A stretch of DNA of 56,339 nt from a virus. Shown piece by piece: positions 46,003 through 56,339 of this stretch. Each line of letters begins with the position of its first letter. Positions within the stretch are counted from its first letter, which is position 1. Location: IMG/VR virus record IMGVR_UViG_3300037246_000311, positions 1 to 56,339 of that record. One strand, 5' to 3'. Under the pieces are notes generated by a model, which saw only the letters and a program-made list of their open reading frames with translations, searched no databases and was not told the origin of the DNA. Both the position numbers and the translations under genes were made by a program.

Positions 46003-46397
46003 AGATTTCCTACTATTTTTCCCTGTTTTTCCCACTCCTGTTTGTGGTAGGGATTGCCGATGCTCACAAGAAGCACGGCCACCACCACGAGGCGCCTGTG
46101 ATCACCAACGTGACCGAGGTGACCAACGTGACCAACGTGACGACCGGCATCGAGGACGACGAGTTCAATGGTGCGATCGCCGCGGCCCTGGCAGCTGACG
46201 CGATCCACTGCACCACCAGCTCACGCAAGCACCAGATGGGGATCGGGATGGGCAACAGCGATGGCCAGAGCGGTGTCGCCATTGGCTACTGCCACAGCGT
46301 CGAGATCCAGAACCAGCCGGTCATGATCGGCATCAAGGCCTCGAGCGCCGAGGACACTGATGCGAAATATAGTGTCGGCCTCAACTGGACTTTCTGA
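45999..46397 (+). CDS. Exported protein with YadA-like outer-membrane anchor
   Basis: The 132-residue protein begins at GTG 45999 with a signal peptide (KISYYFSLFFPLLFVVGIADA). The mature part opens with HKKHGHHHE, then a stalk-like repeat (VTEVTNVTNVTT). The last 70 residues, with GAIAAALAAD, MGIGMGNSDGQSGVAIGY and a final VGLNWTF, resemble the YadA anchor: four strands per chain and a terminal Phe that outer-membrane proteins need for insertion. No passenger domain is present. Trimerisation and outer-membrane insertion are inferred. Confidence 0.72.
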   Translation: MKISYYFSLFFPLLFVVGIADAHKKHGHHHEAPVITNVTEVTNVTNVTTGIEDDEFNGAIAAALAADAIHCTTSSRKHQMGIGMGNSDGQSGVAIGYCHSVEIQNQPVMIGIKASSAEDTDAKYSVGLNWTF

Positions 46398-46927
46398 TGA
46401 ACGAGGATACCAAAGACTACCCCGAGCAAGATACCGAAGAGGTAATCCTGTCTCGTGCCGGCAAGATCAAGCAGTGGTTCGAGATTGCGATGGCCACCAG
46501 GAAAGTTGCCATGCTGATCTGGGGCCTGGTGGTTGCCACTGGTGGATCCCTGGTTGTTGGCCAGGTCACCGATACAACTCCGATCCGCGATGCCGCGGTG
46601 GCGATCGGCCTGGTCGATGAAGCATCCAGGGACATCGTCGGCAATGACGCGATCTATGACGAGCTGTCGAATCTCATCGAGGATGTGGAGCGCCTGGACG
46701 CGCTGACGGCCCAGCTCCAGGAAGAGATGACCAAGCACGGCCACCCACTGCCCGAAGGAATAGCAGGAATAGCGGGAATAGCAGGCCCAGCTGGCCCACC
46801 AGGTCCGCAAGGTCCTCGAGGAGTAGCGGGAGCAGCAGGGCCTCCAGGAAGTGCAGCTGTGAGCGAGGCAGCAATCCGTGCCGAACTCGAGAAGCTCCTG
46901 CCACCAAACCACACGAGCCTACACTGA
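46397..46927 (+). CDS. Membrane protein with collagen-like tail
   Basis: The 176-residue protein has an acidic N-terminus, a membrane helix (VAMLIWGLVVATGGSLVVG), and a collagen-like GXY stretch near the end (GIAGPAGPPGPQGPRGVAG) followed by a helix. Collagen-like repeats in phage proteins form trimers. Its relation to the preceding exported protein may be functional, as both could be trimeric. Confidence 0.65.
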   Translation: MNEDTKDYPEQDTEEVILSRAGKIKQWFEIAMATRKVAMLIWGLVVATGGSLVVGQVTDTTPIRDAAVAIGLVDEASRDIVGNDAIYDELSNLIEDVERLDALTAQLQEEMTKHGHPLPEGIAGIAGIAGPAGPPGPQGPRGVAGAAGPPGSAAVSEAAIRAELEKLLPPNHTSLH

Positions 46928-48833: not shown

Positions 48834-51800
48834 ATGCCATTAGACGCCTGCATCGCCAAGGTTGGAACACTGTCTGAAAACGACATTGCCTTCCTGCGCA
48901 AGGAGATCCTCGACGGCAGCACCGACGAGCAGGCGATTGCCAACCTCGAGGTCCTGGTCGAGCAGGAGGCCGAGGCCCTGGTCGCCAGGATCGAGGAAGC
49001 GGGTGGCACCATCGAGCGCGAGGCGCCACCTGTGGACCGGCCTGACGCTGCCGAAGCGGCATCGCTCGAGAACAACATCAAGCTGGCCGAGGCTACCAAG
49101 TACAACACCAACCGCGAACTGAAGGAGGTGATGCAGGCCAACGTGCTCCAGGCCTACCTGGAATCGCAGGGCTTCGAGGACACTGGCACTCTCGAGGAGC
49201 GCACCGCGGACAACGCCGCGCACCTGGCTGCAGTCGGTACCGCCGATGCAATCTTCGCGCTGCAGGACAACGCTGACGCTGTCGGCTGGTACGACAGGAC
49301 AGTGAGCAAGGCGCTCGAGGTCCTGGGTACCATCCACCCCGAGATCCTGACAGATCCCAACGCCAGGTTTGCATTCACCTTTGCCCTGGCTGTGACCAGC
49401 AACGGCATGAAGGTGGACAACAATTTCAAGATGGCTGAAGCCGCGTATCGTGCCTACAAGAAGGATGGCAAGATGCCGAACAACATCGGTGAGGGTACCG
49501 CTGGCGGCAAGATGAATGAGCACATGGACCTGTTCAATAAACTGGTTGATGAGATGGGCCTCGAGAACTTTGGCGCGATGTTCCAGAGCCAGTTCACTGT
49601 TGCCCAGCTGAAGCGGATGGACCTGGACCCAGGAGGTGAGCTGGTGGACACCGTAGTGTATGGTGCCGCGGTCCTCGGCCCCAAGATCGGCAACGGCTTC
49701 TTCATGAATCTCAACGGCGAGTACGACCAGCTGACCATGGACCGCTGGCTGATGCGGACCTGGGGCCGGTGGACTGGATCCCTGATCAAGGATCGACCTG
49801 ACCTGGTCGAGGCGAAGGTCGCTGACATGGAGAAGAAGCTGACCAGGATGTCGAAGGCCTCGAAGGCCTGGGGGTTTTTCCAGAAGACCCTCGACATGGA
49901 TCTCACCAACCATGGCAAGCCTGGTGGTCCGACCTACATCGAGATCGCACAGCGGATCCAGCTGAAGTCAGTCAACCCCGATTCCAGGTCCGACATGAAC
50001 CGCACTGTCATCGGTAGTCAGCTGCGCAAGCTGGGCAATGGCCTGGCCAAAGATGTGGACGGCCAGAAGGAGGCGCCACAGAACGGAACCGAGCGCAACT
50101 GGATCAGGGGAGTGTTCACTACCATCCTGGAAAACATGCATAACCAGGGCTATACTGATATGACGATGGCCGATCTCCAGGCCTTGTTGTGGTACCCAGA
50201 GAAGCGGCTCTACGACAAGGCAAAATCTGAAGAGGATGTGGCCAACGGTTACGACCTGGATGAGGCGCCCGACTACGCGAACGCTGCCGCTAAACTGGCA
50301 AAGGCGCGGGGCATCAAACCTGCCGCAATCAAGTCGGCACAACAACGAGCGGAGCAGCAACATGCGGATCAAGTCAGCGCAGGACGAGCAGCAGGAGAAC
50401 TTCCAGCACAAGCCGCGGAAGGGCAACCGGCAGCTGCTCGAGGCCTTGCTCGAAAAGAACGCAGCGCGTTCCTTAGAAGGAATATCCTCGTCCCAAATCG
50501 GGTTAGTCGAAGCGATAATGAGAAAGCTAAAAGTTACACGGCTCCGAGCCGAGGAACTCTTGGAAATGTACTCGGCGTAATACACAAACCCAGGCAGGAT
50601 TACTCCAACGAGTTAGCTGCAGCTGAAGTCACACCGATGACCATGGTGGAGATGGAAGCCACACCTGAGAACGCGGACCTCTTCGCGCAATCCATTCAGA
50701 ATATCAAGGACGCTCACCCCGAGGGTGCCGCGGTCTATGTGTACCCGACTGACGAGTACGCCGGCATGAAGCTGTTCGTGAACGAGGACCAGACTGCCGG
50801 CTTCGCCGTGAAGGCAGATGGCGACATCGTCAGCGTCTTCGCCGCACCGAATCGTGACGAGCCTGGTCGCGTCTACTCGATGCTGGCCCTGGCCGTCGAA
50901 CGCGCTGGCGGTACCAAGCTCGACGCATTCGACACCATCCTGCCCCAGGTCTACGCGATGGCCGGCTTCGTAGAAGTTGGTCGGGATCCCTGGGTAGAAA
51001 AATTCAAGCCAGCTGACTGGGACAAGGCGACCTTCATCGAGTACAACAACGGTGAGCCTGACATCGTCTACATGGAATATCAGAATGCTGTGCCTGAGTA
51101 CTTCGCGCAGTCTGATGTCAGCAAGGACGAGGCCCTGATCGAGATCGACAATGCCCTGGAAGATGGGTCCATCAAAATCACCCAGGCCGAGGCTGAAGCC
51201 CTGGTCGAAATGGGATTCACTCACCCCGATGTCCGGAGGACTGAAGATGACAAAGCTACTGAAGCAGCTGCTCGATCCCCAGAGGAAGCAGCCCAAGCCC
51301 GAGAAGATTACGCCGCAGCGACGAGCCGAACTGACAGCGAAGTATCTGCCGAGTTCGCAAGAGCGAAACGTGGCGAAGCTGTTACATTCCTCCACCGAAG
51401 CCATGTAGCTTTCTCGCACTTCGATGACGGGTACCTGGGCGGCAACACTGGCCGGCCTACCGCGCACCTGGGACACTTCCTGACTGCAATGTCTTACGAT
51501 GCGCCTGAGTTTGGCGACAACCTCGTTACCGTTACTTTCCAATTCAAGAAGCCCCTGGTCATCTCGTCCGAAGAGTTCGTCGCGATGGGCGACCGATCTA
51601 TCCAGGCAAACAAGCAGGACCGCCTCGACCTGATGGCCCAGGGCTATGACGGCATCCTGGTCGATGGCCTGGAGTGGGCGATCGCATTCGAGGGTAAAAA
51701 CCTGACGCTGGCGCACGACACATCAGGCCTCGAGTGGATGGAGGCTGAAGTGGAGAAGGGCGAGGGCTTCCTGGAACAGCCTGACCGCGGACGCTACTAC

Positions 51801-54800
51801 CCTGACGTCAGTGGCAAGCGCATCATCCAGCTGACCCAGGCTGCAGATCTCTCGACCTTCTTGCACGAGACCGGACACATGTTCCTGGATATTCAGCGGG
51901 TGTGGGTCGAGAAGTACGGCATCAACGAGAACCAGCAGGCCATGCTTGACTGGCTCGGCGTCGAGAGCTTCGAGGACATCACCAGGGAACAACACGAGAC
52001 CTGGGCCGAGACCTTCGAGGTCTACCTGCGCGAGGGCAAGGCGCCATCGATCGGCCTGCGCCGAGCGTTCGCATCATTCACTTCCTGGTTGAAGCGACTG
52101 TACCGGACGCTGTCGGATCCGCGGCTGACTCGTGCCAAGATGTCGCCTGAGATCACCGAGATCTTCGACCGCATGCTGGCCACCGAGGCTGAGATCGACC
52201 TGGCCGCGAGTACGCCTGAGTACGGTGAGCTGTTCCAATCCCAGGAGCAGGCCGGCATGACTGATGAGCAGTGGAAAAAGTACAAGAAGCTGGCCGAACG
52301 CAAGAACAAAACTGCCGAGGCCACGCTCGATGCCAAGGTGATGAAGCAGTACAAGCAAATGAAGTCGAAGGAGTGGGCAGCTGAGAAGGCGCCACTGGTC
52401 GAGGCCGAGGTCGAGCGCCTGGGCCAGGAGCCAATCCACCAGGCAATCGCTGAGATGTCTACGGACGAGGGCAAGGTGGACTGGCACATGCTGCGCGATG
52501 CGATCGGTGGCTGGCCGAACGGTAAGAACTGGATCGGCAAGGCTGTCGGTGGTGGCCAGGACCCTGGTCTCGTCGCTGAGAAGTACGGCTTCGCCAGCGT
52601 CAAAGACATGTACGAGCAGGTGAAGGAATCCCCGACAATGAAGCAGGCATCCGAGCAGGCTGCTGAAGAGATCATGGTCCAGCGCCACGGCGACATCCTC
52701 AACGATGGTACGCTCGAGCAGGAGGTCCGTGAGGCGATGCTGAACGATGACCAGGCCGAGCTGCTACTGATGGAGCTGAAGGCCGAGAACCGCAAGGCGC
52801 CGAAGATCAATCGGAAGAACCTCCAGCACGAGGCCGAGCTATTGATCGGGACCTACACCTACAAGGAGATCCGACCGAACAAGTTTTACAACCAGATGAT
52901 CAAGGCGGCGAAGGCTGCAGCTGCGGCTGTTGCCAAGGGCGAGGACGCCACCCCGCACAAGATCCAGCAGCTGGCGAACCACTACCTGTACAGGGCAGCG
53001 ATGGACGCCAGGACCAAGATGGAGAAGAGCCGCAAGTTCGTGAAGGCAGTGCAGAAACGGATCGAAGCCGGCAAGATGAAGCCCACCCAGGTGGACCTGC
53101 AATACATCCAGGCTATGGCCAACCTGTCCAAGGCCTACGACATGCGACTGAAGCCAGAGGAACGAGCGCAGTATGCTCGGAATGTCATGGACTTCTTCGA
53201 GGCCCAGACCAATCCCGAGAACAAGGACGAGGGCGATCTGGTAGGCCTGGAGATGCTGGACCCGAACGTGATCGCAGCCATCCAATTCCGACACAAGAAC
53301 GGCACCCTCGAGGGCTTCGAGCTGAAGACCTTTGACGAGATGACTGTCGGTGAGATGAAGGGCGTGGTCCTCATGCTCGAGCACCTGCGCTATGTCGGTG
53401 GCCAGATCGCATCGAAGGGCAGCGAGGAGGCTGCTGACATGCGCGAAGCCGGCCTCGAGTCCATCGATGAGAATGGTGGCAAGGATTATCCTGTCTCACC
53501 GAAGAAGGTACGCGCCGGCAAAATAGCCAGGCTGACCTGGGGAGACTACTGGGCATCACTGCCCTCGATCGTCAACATGGTCCGCAAGATGGATGGCTTC
53601 AAGGATGGGGGCTGGGCGTTCGAGAATATCCTCAAACCACTCCAGGCTGCGGTCGATAAAAAGTTCGAGCTGCAGATGCAGATGTTCAAGCAGATGGAGA
53701 CTTTCATGAGCGGGATCTCTGGCGTAGGCCTGCGCCAGGATGACGCGCTGCCATTCACAACCGAGGATGGCCTGGAGCAGGAGTACACCAGCGAGGAGAT
53801 CTTCATGCTGGCTGTCTACTGGGGAACCGAGTCCTCGAGGGCGGCAGTCATGGAGGGCCACGAGATCAACGAGAATGACGCCATGGCGTTGATGGAGCGG
53901 CTCACACCTGAACAGCTTGAGCTGGCCAACCAGGTCTGGGCGATGAATGAATCACAGTGGCCTGACCTGGCAAGAACAGCCAAGGCAATGATGGGTGTGG
54001 CGCCACCGAAACTGATGGCTACTCCGTTCACCGTCAACGGTGTGCAGATGACGGGTGGCCACATGCAGCTGATGTACACCAGCCAGAGCACTCAGCTGGC
54101 CGATGAACAAGAGCGAGGCATGCGGACCAGCAACGTGGTACCGATGGCGGCAGGATCCACCCACGCCAGGAAAGGATCCGGAGGCAGGGTCGTGAACCTC
54201 GATGCGAGTAACATCTCGATGTCGATTGAAGACAAGACGCAGTACATCGCCTTCTCTGAAGCCGGCAGGCACCTGCGATCAATCCTGAACAATCGCGAGA
54301 TCCAGGACATGATCGTGAAGAAGCACGGCGCCCCGTACTACCGGAACCTGGTGCATGCCGTGGCCGCGGTGGCCGCTGCCCAGCCGGCACAGGAATCTTC
54401 ACAATGGATTGCTCGAGCATCGAAGTGGGTACGCCAGTCAGCGACCTTGATGCACCTGGCCTACTCGTTTCGTAACGTGGCACAGCAGCCAGCTGCAGCA
54501 GCAGCGTCGATCAGGGAAGTCGGGATCATTCCGTTCATCCAGGGCGTGGGCATGTTTGGATCCAACTACTCAGCCATGACTAAAATGATCAAAGAGAAAT
54601 CCAAGTTCATGGAGAATCGTGCCGACCTGGTCAACCGTGAAGCGCGTGAGACCATGAAGAAAGTCATGGCGACTACGAAGTTCAGGATCACCTGGCGTGG
54701 CATCGAGGGGCAGTACTGGAATGCATTCAAGTCCTACGGCTTCATCATGCAGACCATGGTCGATTCAGCTGTGGCCTATCCCACCTGGTACGCGAAGTAC

Positions 54801-55466
54801 AACCTGGGCATCGAGGCGCACGGCGACGAGGCCAGGGCGGTCATCGAGGCTGACAGCGCGGTGGCCGAGTCAGTGGGATCTGGTTCCGACCTGCACCTGG
54901 GCCGGCTGCTGCAGAGCAACCAGACCGAGCTGGTGAAGAGCATGACGGTCTTCCAGTCCTGGTTCAACGCCTACTACCAGCGCCTGTACAAATCCTCGAA
55001 GGGTGGCGAAACTTTTCTTAACCCTGCCTTCTTGATGGAAGCCGTGGTGCTCCCCATAATAATCGCTAACCTGACACAGCTGGCAATCGGTGACTGGCCA
55101 GACGAGGAGGAGGAGTGGCACGAGTGGGCAACAAAGAACTACCTGAAGTTCATGATCGCGACCTTGCCATTGGTCAGGGAAGCCGGCTCGGTGTGGGAGG
55201 GATTCACCCCGACTTCACCGATCACCACCCTGGTCACCGCGCCGTTCAGATTGGAGAGCGAGATCGATTCCTACCTGGAAGGCAGGCAGACCCTGATGAA
55301 GCTCATGTCTGATGTTGGCAAGACCGTGACCTCGGTAGTACCAGCTCCTGGATCCGGGAACATCTGGCGCGTAATCGAGTACACCGATTCATTCAACCAG
55401 GGCAAAGAGGGCGACATCTACAACCCGTACCTGGCATTTACTGAGGGGGCTGACAAAGACAAATAA
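48834..55466 (+). CDS. Giant polyvalent virion protein (2210 residues)
   Basis: Order of recognisable parts: helical N-terminus (1-505); a low-quality stretch (509-582) that coincides with a nested gene; a GNAT-like domain (about 594-745, MLALAVERAGGTKLDAFDTI); another nested-gene stretch (804-857); an ADP-ribosyltransferase-like domain (about 848-962, FLHRSHVAFSHFDDG); a zincin motif HETGH (1011-1015) with AETFEVYL downstream; a long helical region; and a C-terminal module (1880-2210) shared with the left-end copy. Such proteins may be injected with the DNA and modify host proteins; that is known for some families and inferred here. Confidence 0.82.
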   Translation: MPLDACIAKVGTLSENDIAFLRKEILDGSTDEQAIANLEVLVEQEAEALVARIEEAGGTIEREAPPVDRPDAAEAASLENNIKLAEATKYNTNRELKEVMQANVLQAYLESQGFEDTGTLEERTADNAAHLAAVGTADAIFALQDNADAVGWYDRTVSKALEVLGTIHPEILTDPNARFAFTFALAVTSNGMKVDNNFKMAEAAYRAYKKDGKMPNNIGEGTAGGKMNEHMDLFNKLVDEMGLENFGAMFQSQFTVAQLKRMDLDPGGELVDTVVYGAAVLGPKIGNGFFMNLNGEYDQLTMDRWLMRTWGRWTGSLIKDRPDLVEAKVADMEKKLTRMSKASKAWGFFQKTLDMDLTNHGKPGGPTYIEIAQRIQLKSVNPDSRSDMNRTVIGSQLRKLGNGLAKDVDGQKEAPQNGTERNWIRGVFTTILENMHNQGYTDMTMADLQALLWYPEKRLYDKAKSEEDVANGYDLDEAPDYANAAAKLAKARGIKPAAIKSAQQRAEQQHADQVSAGRAAGELPAQAAEGQPAAARGLARKERSAFLRRNILVPNRVSRSDNEKAKSYTAPSRGTLGNVLGVIHKPRQDYSNELAAAEVTPMTMVEMEATPENADLFAQSIQNIKDAHPEGAAVYVYPTDEYAGMKLFVNEDQTAGFAVKADGDIVSVFAAPNRDEPGRVYSMLALAVERAGGTKLDAFDTILPQVYAMAGFVEVGRDPWVEKFKPADWDKATFIEYNNGEPDIVYMEYQNAVPEYFAQSDVSKDEALIEIDNALEDGSIKITQAEAEALVEMGFTHPDVRRTEDDKATEAAARSPEEAAQAREDYAAATSRTDSEVSAEFARAKRGEAVTFLHRSHVAFSHFDDGYLGGNTGRPTAHLGHFLTAMSYDAPEFGDNLVTVTFQFKKPLVISSEEFVAMGDRSIQANKQDRLDLMAQGYDGILVDGLEWAIAFEGKNLTLAHDTSGLEWMEAEVEKGEGFLEQPDRGRYYPDVSGKRIIQLTQAADLSTFLHETGHMFLDIQRVWVEKYGINENQQAMLDWLGVESFEDITREQHETWAETFEVYLREGKAPSIGLRRAFASFTSWLKRLYRTLSDPRLTRAKMSPEITEIFDRMLATEAEIDLAASTPEYGELFQSQEQAGMTDEQWKKYKKLAERKNKTAEATLDAKVMKQYKQMKSKEWAAEKAPLVEAEVERLGQEPIHQAIAEMSTDEGKVDWHMLRDAIGGWPNGKNWIGKAVGGGQDPGLVAEKYGFASVKDMYEQVKESPTMKQASEQAAEEIMVQRHGDILNDGTLEQEVREAMLNDDQAELLLMELKAENRKAPKINRKNLQHEAELLIGTYTYKEIRPNKFYNQMIKAAKAAAAAVAKGEDATPHKIQQLANHYLYRAAMDARTKMEKSRKFVKAVQKRIEAGKMKPTQVDLQYIQAMANLSKAYDMRLKPEERAQYARNVMDFFEAQTNPENKDEGDLVGLEMLDPNVIAAIQFRHKNGTLEGFELKTFDEMTVGEMKGVVLMLEHLRYVGGQIASKGSEEAADMREAGLESIDENGGKDYPVSPKKVRAGKIARLTWGDYWASLPSIVNMVRKMDGFKDGGWAFENILKPLQAAVDKKFELQMQMFKQMETFMSGISGVGLRQDDALPFTTEDGLEQEYTSEEIFMLAVYWGTESSRAAVMEGHEINENDAMALMERLTPEQLELANQVWAMNESQWPDLARTAKAMMGVAPPKLMATPFTVNGVQMTGGHMQLMYTSQSTQLADEQERGMRTSNVVPMAAGSTHARKGSGGRVVNLDASNISMSIEDKTQYIAFSEAGRHLRSILNNREIQDMIVKKHGAPYYRNLVHAVAAVAAAQPAQESSQWIARASKWVRQSATLMHLAYSFRNVAQQPAAAAASIREVGIIPFIQGVGMFGSNYSAMTKMIKEKSKFMENRADLVNREARETMKKVMATTKFRITWRGIEGQYWNAFKSYGFIMQTMVDSAVAYPTWYAKYNLGIEAHGDEARAVIEADSAVAESVGSGSDLHLGRLLQSNQTELVKSMTVFQSWFNAYYQRLYKSSKGGETFLNPAFLMEAVVLPIIIANLTQLAIGDWPDEEEEWHEWATKNYLKFMIATLPLVREAGSVWEGFTPTSPITTLVTAPFRLESEIDSYLEGRQTLMKLMSDVGKTVTSVVPAPGSGNIWRVIEYTDSFNQGKEGDIYNPYLAFTEGADKDK
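50362..50580 (+). CDS. Nested gene A inside the polyvalent gene
   Basis: This 72-codon frame begins with ATG, has GGAG 7 bases upstream, and reads MRIKSAQDEQQENF, then LLEALLEKNAARSLEGISSS and IMRKLKVTRLRAEELLEMYS. In this stretch 52 of 72 codons end in G or C, against 25 of 73 in the long frame. The first 29 codons are typical for this phage (28 end in G or C). It lies just before the GNAT-like domain. No family recognised; a helical protein. Confidence 0.6.
   Translation: MRIKSAQDEQQENFQHKPRKGNRQLLEALLEKNAARSLEGISSSQIGLVEAIMRKLKVTRLRAEELLEMYSA
51247..51408 (+). CDS. Nested gene B inside the polyvalent gene
   Basis: This 53-codon frame has the strong ribosome site CGGAGGACTGAAG before ATG and reads MTKLLKQLLDPQRKQ, then LTAKYLPSSQERNVAKLL. 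In it 38 of 53 codons end in G or C, against 21 of 54 in the long frame over the same bases. It lies between the GNAT-like and ADP-ribosyltransferase-like domains. Basic, helical; function unknown. Confidence 0.6.
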   Translation: MTKLLKQLLDPQRKQPKPEKITPQRRAELTAKYLPSSQERNVAKLLHSSTEAM

Positions 55467-56339
55467 TGGTTACTTCCGCTATTTCGAGAATGGGCAAGTC
55501 GCCCGAAGAGGGGATCAAGGCGCCGGTCAAAACATCGACCACGACTAACATCACGCTGAAGGGTACCGGCCAGGTTCTCAACGGAGTGGTGACCAGCACC
55601 AAGGATCGTGTCCTGGTCAAGGACCAGACCGCGCCGAATGAGAACGGCACCTACAACGTGGGTCCGGATGCCTGGGAACGCACGACCGACATGAACGCTG
55701 CCGACGATCTCGAAGTCGGCATGCTGATTGTGGATTCCAACACCCAGGTCATTTACAGCATTTCGTTCACAGGACCCTGGTCACCAGGTATCACCGCTCT
55801 CAGCTTCAACGTGCTGATCGGCGCCATGCCTGGGCAGATCGTCCTGACCAACGCCAGTGCGGTTGACCTGGTCGATCACGATGTAGCCCTGGTTACCGGC
55901 GCACTGGATCCAAGCATCTCGCAGCACCTGGAGTACGACTTCCAGGCCATCCAATCCAAGAGCGATGACACCACCGCGGCACCGCTGTTCCTGAATCCGC
56001 TCGGCAGTTATACCCAGGGACCGCAGATCATCGCGGGTAACCCAGGCCTCGAGCAAGCCGGCATCACCATCGATGGCGTTCTCTACCAGAGCGCACTGAA
56101 GGCGTCAGATATTGGCGGCACGAATGTCGCGGCGGTCATCATCCATCGTCACTCGACAACCCTGCCGGCAATCCTGGTTGGCTCAAGAACGGCCACCGAT
56201 GACGACACCCATGCCATCGTCGCTGACAACGACACACTGCTGGCCATCATGGCCGTGGGTCATGACGGCACGGACTACAAGCAAGGTGCGCAGATCCGCT
56301 TCCAGGTCGATGGCACTCCTGGCGCTGGAGACATGCCTG
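54564..56339 (+). repeat. Diverged right-end repeat of the window start (2-1753)
   Basis: The sequence covers the end of the polyvalent gene and the fibre start, in the same order and orientation as 2-1753. Divergence is high on the polyvalent side and low towards the window end. One 24-base length difference lies in the polyvalent part; there is none in the fibre part. Confidence 0.85.
55466..56339 (+). CDS. Tail fibre protein 1, second copy (3' end outside window)
   Basis: The frame is open to the window end and gives 291 residues. It matches the start of the 880-2574 gene without any insertion or deletion up to the end (base 56339 corresponds to base 1753). The N-terminal third differs at several positions and the later part is almost identical. 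It starts in the same TAATG overlap with the polyvalent gene as in the left copy. Confidence 0.85.
   Translation, partial: MVTSAISRMGKSPEEGIKAPVKTSTTTNITLKGTGQVLNGVVTSTKDRVLVKDQTAPNENGTYNVGPDAWERTTDMNAADDLEVGMLIVDSNTQVIYSISFTGPWSPGITALSFNVLIGAMPGQIVLTNASAVDLVDHDVALVTGALDPSISQHLEYDFQAIQSKSDDTTAAPLFLNPLGSYTQGPQIIAGNPGLEQAGITIDGVLYQSALKASDIGGTNVAAVIIHRHSTTLPAILVGSRTATDDDTHAIVADNDTLLAIMAVGHDGTDYKQGAQIRFQVDGTPGAGDMP

Follow-up and report, generated by a model that had tools for sequence, protein, structure and literature searches.

Positions 50362 to 50580 of the plus strand very probably represent a protein-coding gene that is wholly embedded, in the +1 frame, in a giant polyvalent-type phage gene, as judged from the comparison of related sequences. 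The window analyzed here is the entire record of an uncultivated virus contig (56,339 bases). The predicted product of the nested gene has 72 amino acids (MRIKSAQDEQQENFQHKPRKGNRQLLEALLEKNAARSLEGISSSQIGLVEAIMRKLKVTRLRAEELLEMYSA), and a Shine-Dalgarno-like GGAG is found at 50351–50354 (plus strand), 7 nt 5′ of the nested ATG. Two parts of the product correspond to conserved blocks of a protein family described below: an N-terminal motif at 50374–50394 (SAQDEQQ here, consensus xAQ[QDE][QE]HD) and a C-terminal helix at 50533–50577 (here VTRLRAEELLEMYSA, consensus GLTRExAEEMAExFGF), both on the plus strand. The enclosing gene (48834–55466, plus strand) encodes a protein of 2210 amino acids, which consists, in this order, of a conserved upstream domain (aa 70–509; 49041–50360), a linker co-encoded with the nested gene (aa 510–582; 50361–50579), a GNAT-like acetyltransferase domain (about aa 602–750; 50637–51083; phrog_2563) and a large region matching phrog_9880 (aa 807–2119). 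A HETGH metallopeptidase-like motif is also present.

The long protein is thus very large and multidomain, with effector-type domains, and it resembles the polyvalent proteins, among whose domains are LPDs, metallopeptidases and GNATs (PMC5512222). Polyvalent proteins are multidomain, are thought to be injected, and have gained RimI-like GNATs and LPD domains as modules (Iyer et al. 2017, PMC5512222). By analogy with this class, the long protein is probably packaged in the virion and injected. No LPD domain above the Pfam cut-off was found in it, the end of the upstream domain matching LPD22 at 15.1 bits (cut-off 28.6), and for this reason it is called polyvalent-type here and not filed as a member of the class.

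The sequence-only reading had drawn attention to a 72-codon ORF with its own ATG and a GGAG site inside a 2210-codon frame, and to third-base G/C counts of 52 of 72 in the nested frame against 25 of 73 in the long frame; all of these were re-read exactly as claimed. Its statement that most genes of this phage strongly favour G/C also agrees with our measurement (mean GC3 0.75, SD 0.08 in windows of 72 codons). When 10,020 such windows, sampled from 27 genes, were scanned, the lowest GC3 of all was found at starts 50355–50367, on the nested ORF, where the GC3 of the long frame is 0.34. Since nested third positions are the first positions of the long frame, the high G/C of the nested frame is partly automatic. 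Indeed, the synonymous-codon score of the nested frame (−0.07) equals that of the average +1 frame elsewhere (−0.07); the unusual part is the long frame, which scores −0.30 over the nested ORF, where the minimum of the gene also lies. A +1 run of equal length arose by chance in 44% of synonymous-codon shuffles when whole-gene codons were used, or in 7% with local codons. The case for a nested gene from the window by itself is thin, an open +1 frame being expected by chance.

A second GC3 dip of the long gene, at about 51192, leads to the same caution. It lies in the second-lowest stretch (51151–51408), which holds an 85-codon +1 ORF (nested gene B), and no homologue of this ORF was found in about 120 related loci, few of which share that stretch. 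A dip with no conserved nested ORF means that low GC3 alone does not prove a nested gene. In many relatives, too, the GC3 minimum or near-minimum of the long gene coincides with the linker; the idea that the dip is a mere property of linkers was overturned by the conserved ORF. As had been claimed, the long frame does read as a linker here, and it is rich in Gly, Arg, Ala and Ser. Because the GC3 dip and the open frame are weak evidence when taken alone, the status of the nested ORF as a gene rests on the comparison with relatives.

Searches with tblastn and with patterns, using the window's own nested protein, gave no matches, and it resembled an orphan until the corresponding linkers of relatives were translated in the +1 frame. 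Limnohabitans phage DC33 (L040), a cultured phage that infects Limnohabitans DCL3, has the same order of upstream domain, linker and GNAT as the window. Its +1 linker frame encodes MNAQDEHDYRMSKLRSLEGSRPKLEALLKEKNASSQAQSRRNLQDPIEAVMQNNPGLTRQEIVEMAEKFGF, which aligns to the nested product with a score of 57, compared with 29.9 ± 5.7 for shuffles; the long frame across the linker aligns as well (52, compared with 27.4 ± 5.0). The DC33 nested gene, with its ATG at L040:5274, is not annotated in its record. It is 51% identical to that of L070, and it was found by a relative's protein at E 8e-13 among all phage records. Reading of the +1 frame at the equivalent place in 122 loci, the window included, yielded the same protein family repeatedly. 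A profile built from 38 nested proteins, from which the window was excluded, matched the window's nested ORF at 40.7 bits (E 1.2e-11), and no other ORF in any of the window's six frames gave a significant match (next best E 1.5). The homology search of both frames that the sequence-only reading had asked for therefore shows nested and long frames to be conserved together across the linker. The observation it had named as a refutation, relatives in which the long frame alone is conserved and the nested ATG is broken, was sought among the relatives, and the opposite was seen.

In 84 of 121 related loci the +1 ORF of the linker, located as in the window, matched this profile significantly, and the N-terminal motif occurred in the +1 frame of 103 of the 122 loci, in the +2 frame of none and in the long frame of one; many of these loci are near-identical, and 80 of them are the best 80 of 327 IMG/VR relatives picked by a query that included the GNAT, so that the counts are inflated, if not the contrast. 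The remaining significant matches came from re-fetched loci, from L124, another phage locus in which the gene is nested, and from a single fragment that is free-standing. Nearly all loci without a significant match have a shorter +1 ORF, which ends about 23–43 codons past the anchor, and many of the shorter ORFs share the N-terminal motif of the family. The second-frame protein is thus kept among diverged relatives. The copy in the window is one of the most divergent, being about 18–38% identical to other members, and it does not end in the Gly-Phe that is usual at the C-terminus. A-T-rich relatives (L023, L024, L025, L027, L029, L031 and L033–L037) have, at the equivalent position, short +1 ORFs of a different type, e.g. 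SPLENLSQEELNSLLETVLSLA, and these possibly form a second nested family. As to DC33, its record (PQ492659.1) is filed under Inoviridae, though the phage is tailed, has 39 kb of DNA and carries a large gene of the polyvalent type.

Three explanations other than a translated nested gene with its own start must be weighed against these data. One is that the open frame is fortuitous: with codon choice relaxed in the linker, GC3 would be low and the +1 frame free of stops, but nothing would be made from it. The shuffling frequencies given above, the codon score shared with any +1 frame and the dip at about 51192 without a conserved nested ORF all agree with it. It does not account for the conservation of sequence, start, stop and frame in many phages, and it is refuted by the match of the window-excluded profile together with the phase of substitutions. 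The latter was analyzed in 12 non-overlapping pairs of relatives. Upstream of the nested gene, substitutions per 100 codons at long-frame positions 1, 2 and 3 were 5.7, 2.9 and 25.0, and downstream they were 8.6, 5.7 and 30.9; inside the nested gene they were 14.7, 9.7 and 11.5 (position 3 versus 1+2, Fisher P 3e-34). It can be seen that third-position changes of the long frame fall two- to threefold exactly over the nested gene, where nested third positions become the most variable. This shift of the greatest variability onto nested third positions is characteristic of a coding frame. In addition, synonymous and nonsynonymous changes counted in the +1 frame were 69:86 inside, in contrast with 29:278 and 41:386 in the flanks, and earlier, larger but less independent sets of pairs gave the same pattern. 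The synonymous/nonsynonymous test across related phages, which had also been proposed, indicates that both frames are under selection, and a fortuitous frame is hardly credible. The constraint on silent sites of the long frame throughout the linker could also be produced by an RNA or DNA element conserved at the nucleotide level, restricting those sites by accident. Such an element predicts neither a codon-periodic pattern in the +1 frame nor a conserved protein with a start and a stop, and we regard it as extremely improbable. Constraint of the first frame's silent sites by the second frame is what an embedded gene would impose.

The third explanation is a programmed +1 frameshift, by which the nested frame would be an alternative C-terminus of the upstream domain and not a separate gene. 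It draws on the observation that the +1 frame is open tens of codons upstream in the window (66 codons before the nested ATG) and in about a dozen relatives. As the window's own frame is open there, frameshifting is excluded through the relatives only. Among these, the start codon of the nested gene occupies a nearly fixed position, with an ATG at or near the motif in 75 of 82 GNAT-type loci. In four of the seven non-ATG loci (L047, L068, L072, L093) the start site is occupied by a GTG, and AGGAG or GGAGG lies a few bases before it; L088, L092 and L106 have no clear nested start. L119 was scored as ATG on account of a codon further upstream, and at the aligned position it, too, has a GTG with an AGGAG. 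A Shine-Dalgarno sequence within −18 to −5 was found in 24 of 45 distinct upstream sequences, compared with 8.5% of control +1 ATGs, although these sites overlap conserved Lys-Glu codons of the long frame, which may impose part of their conservation. At the position equivalent to the window's GGAG, L046, L049 and L050 have GCGGAG or ACGGAG. Of 39 distinct members, 26 have an in-frame +1 stop no more than 10 codons before the start, and in L044, L059, L067 and L090 this stop lies within one codon of it. The second frame is therefore not open back to a slip site, as a programmed frameshift would need, and it does possess a conserved start codon and ribosome site of its own. Adjacent upstream stops, taken with conserved ATG or GTG starts and their Shine-Dalgarno sites, argue for independent initiation and exclude frameshifting as a general route, which leaves it very improbable; the ATG and ribosome site claimed for the nested gene are borne out. 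The sequence IKSAQ recurs in both frames, which hinted at a frameshift or sequencing error fusing the upstream domain to the nested frame; this was rejected, for relatives maintain both frames without it.

The extent of the nested gene depends on what follows it in the long gene. The C-half, and with it the full-length nested gene, was present in 82 of 83 loci with GNAT directly downstream, and among 36 loci without GNAT the short form was found in 34, the C-half being essentially absent; the loci were partly selected with a query that included GNAT, so these figures should not be taken as population frequencies, and GNAT and non-GNAT classes largely correspond to the two query sets. Three loci stop short of the region needed for this classification. 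The two longer nested ORFs without GNAT (L041 and L042) have a different C-terminus. No nested gene was found beside solo GNATs of Microbacterium, Streptomyces and haloarchaeal viruses, nor at free-standing upstream domains on Bosea and Rhizobium plasmids. Since the C-half tracks the GNAT and the gene is absent from these solo GNATs and free-standing upstream domains, the nested gene belongs to the junction; on this comparative evidence it spans it, with the N-half on the end of the upstream domain and the C-half on the lead-in of the GNAT module.

The sequence-only reading had raised the possibility that the small gene predates the joining of domains, with the long frame extended over it. The comparison does not show this. 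Both frames are conserved, mean identity is similar (0.36 for the nested and 0.33 for the long frame), and no intact free-standing nested gene was found, the only candidate being one truncated fragment without the long frame (MDAQQQHDHSRAKKLNLAGSRQRLEALLKAK..., L131:5001–5111, Lacunisphaera MAG SIBQ01000010.1, 36.5 bits), which is perhaps a prophage remnant or the sole non-nested copy. A linker laid over a gene would fit the Gly/Arg/Ala/Ser-rich long frame and the helical nested protein. The data fit a modified scenario, in which a short nested gene at the end of the upstream domain may have been lengthened or shortened as modules were swapped.

AlphaFold2 predicted four helices in the nested protein, with moderate confidence only (pLDDT 70 and 76, pTM 0.35 and 0.31); the C-terminal helices, at residues 45–56 and 60–70, form a block with pLDDT 86–88. 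The earlier description of a compact helical protein is consistent with this all-helical prediction. No fold match was obtained for the nested models; a Foldseek match to HypK, a partner of an acetyltransferase complex, had E 6.5 and probability 0.06 and is not evidence. Searches of Pfam, PHROGs, NCBIfam and PDB with the nested family returned chance-level matches only; for scans of the collections, a closer subset of the alignment was used. Cysteine is absent from both the window's nested protein and the family consensus, and the predicted pI of the members examined lies between 5 and 10.

One mRNA would give rise to the giant protein and, by internal initiation, to a helical protein of roughly 8 kDa. 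We infer, tentatively, from the exclusive location of the nested gene and its link with the GNAT module, that the small protein may be a dedicated partner of the giant protein, either an assembly chaperone or a regulator of it or of its GNAT, this being the likeliest single role. As a regulator, it might ensure that, within the producing cell, the giant protein or the GNAT domain stays silent or can be packaged. A narrower form, in which the C-half is matched to the GNAT, so that an antidote- or chaperone-like regulator is encoded in the second frame of the linker before the domain it controls and is exchanged together with it when modules recombine, is rather unlikely. A role separate from the giant protein, for example that of a small protein of the virion or of host takeover that is merely kept there for economy of space, has a somewhat less than even chance, and such storage of an independent protein is about as likely as the partner role. 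Embedding needs no functional reason: separated Rz/Rz1 spanins function as well as embedded ones (PMC6139136). A separate role accords less well with a family that was found outside the long gene only as one truncated fragment, that is absent beside solo GNATs and plasmid-borne free-standing upstream domains, and whose C-half occurs together with the GNAT module.

Phage genes embedded in other genes have been described before, and gene callers commonly omit them (PMC6139136, PMC7017920). Rz1 inside Rz of phage lambda is likewise a small gene wholly inside another, in the +1 frame, with its own start and often missed (PMC6139136), and the two products are partners. The nested gene shares with Rz1-like o-spanins its place in the second frame of a larger gene. 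Having no cysteine, its product has no lipobox and hence no lipoprotein signal, unlike Rz1; moreover, the enclosing gene is a giant polyvalent-type gene and not an i-spanin, and the nested product is predicted to be all-helical. Selection in both frames is also known from the nested genes of microviruses (B, K and E of phiX174), where one stretch is dual-coding, and from other overprinted viral genes. Unlike phiX174, the present case concerns a gene of a large dsDNA phage, and the overlap runs across a domain junction with its second half tied to an exchangeable module. The term ‘overlapping’ is absent from the text of the polyvalent-protein paper (PMC5512222), and ‘overlap’ from that of the DC33 paper (PMC12195039); an earlier description outside the open-licence literature is possible. 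The nested gene adds an unannotated protein family, carried by nearly every examined relative with this GNAT module and available in a cultured phage, DC33. It suggests that linkers of polyvalent proteins, supposedly disordered, can conceal genes, and that an overlapping gene may itself be modular, one half being exchanged together with the neighbouring domain in the other frame.

Two further features of the record were observed. The terminal stretches 55401–56339 and 815–1753 are 88.9% identical over 947 columns, and similar genes start at 880 and 55466, so that paralogous genes flank the ends of the contig. At 46397–46927, in a gene that encodes a collagen-like, Gly-Pro-rich stretch, GC3 is low and GC1 very high, and this dip is probably due to composition.
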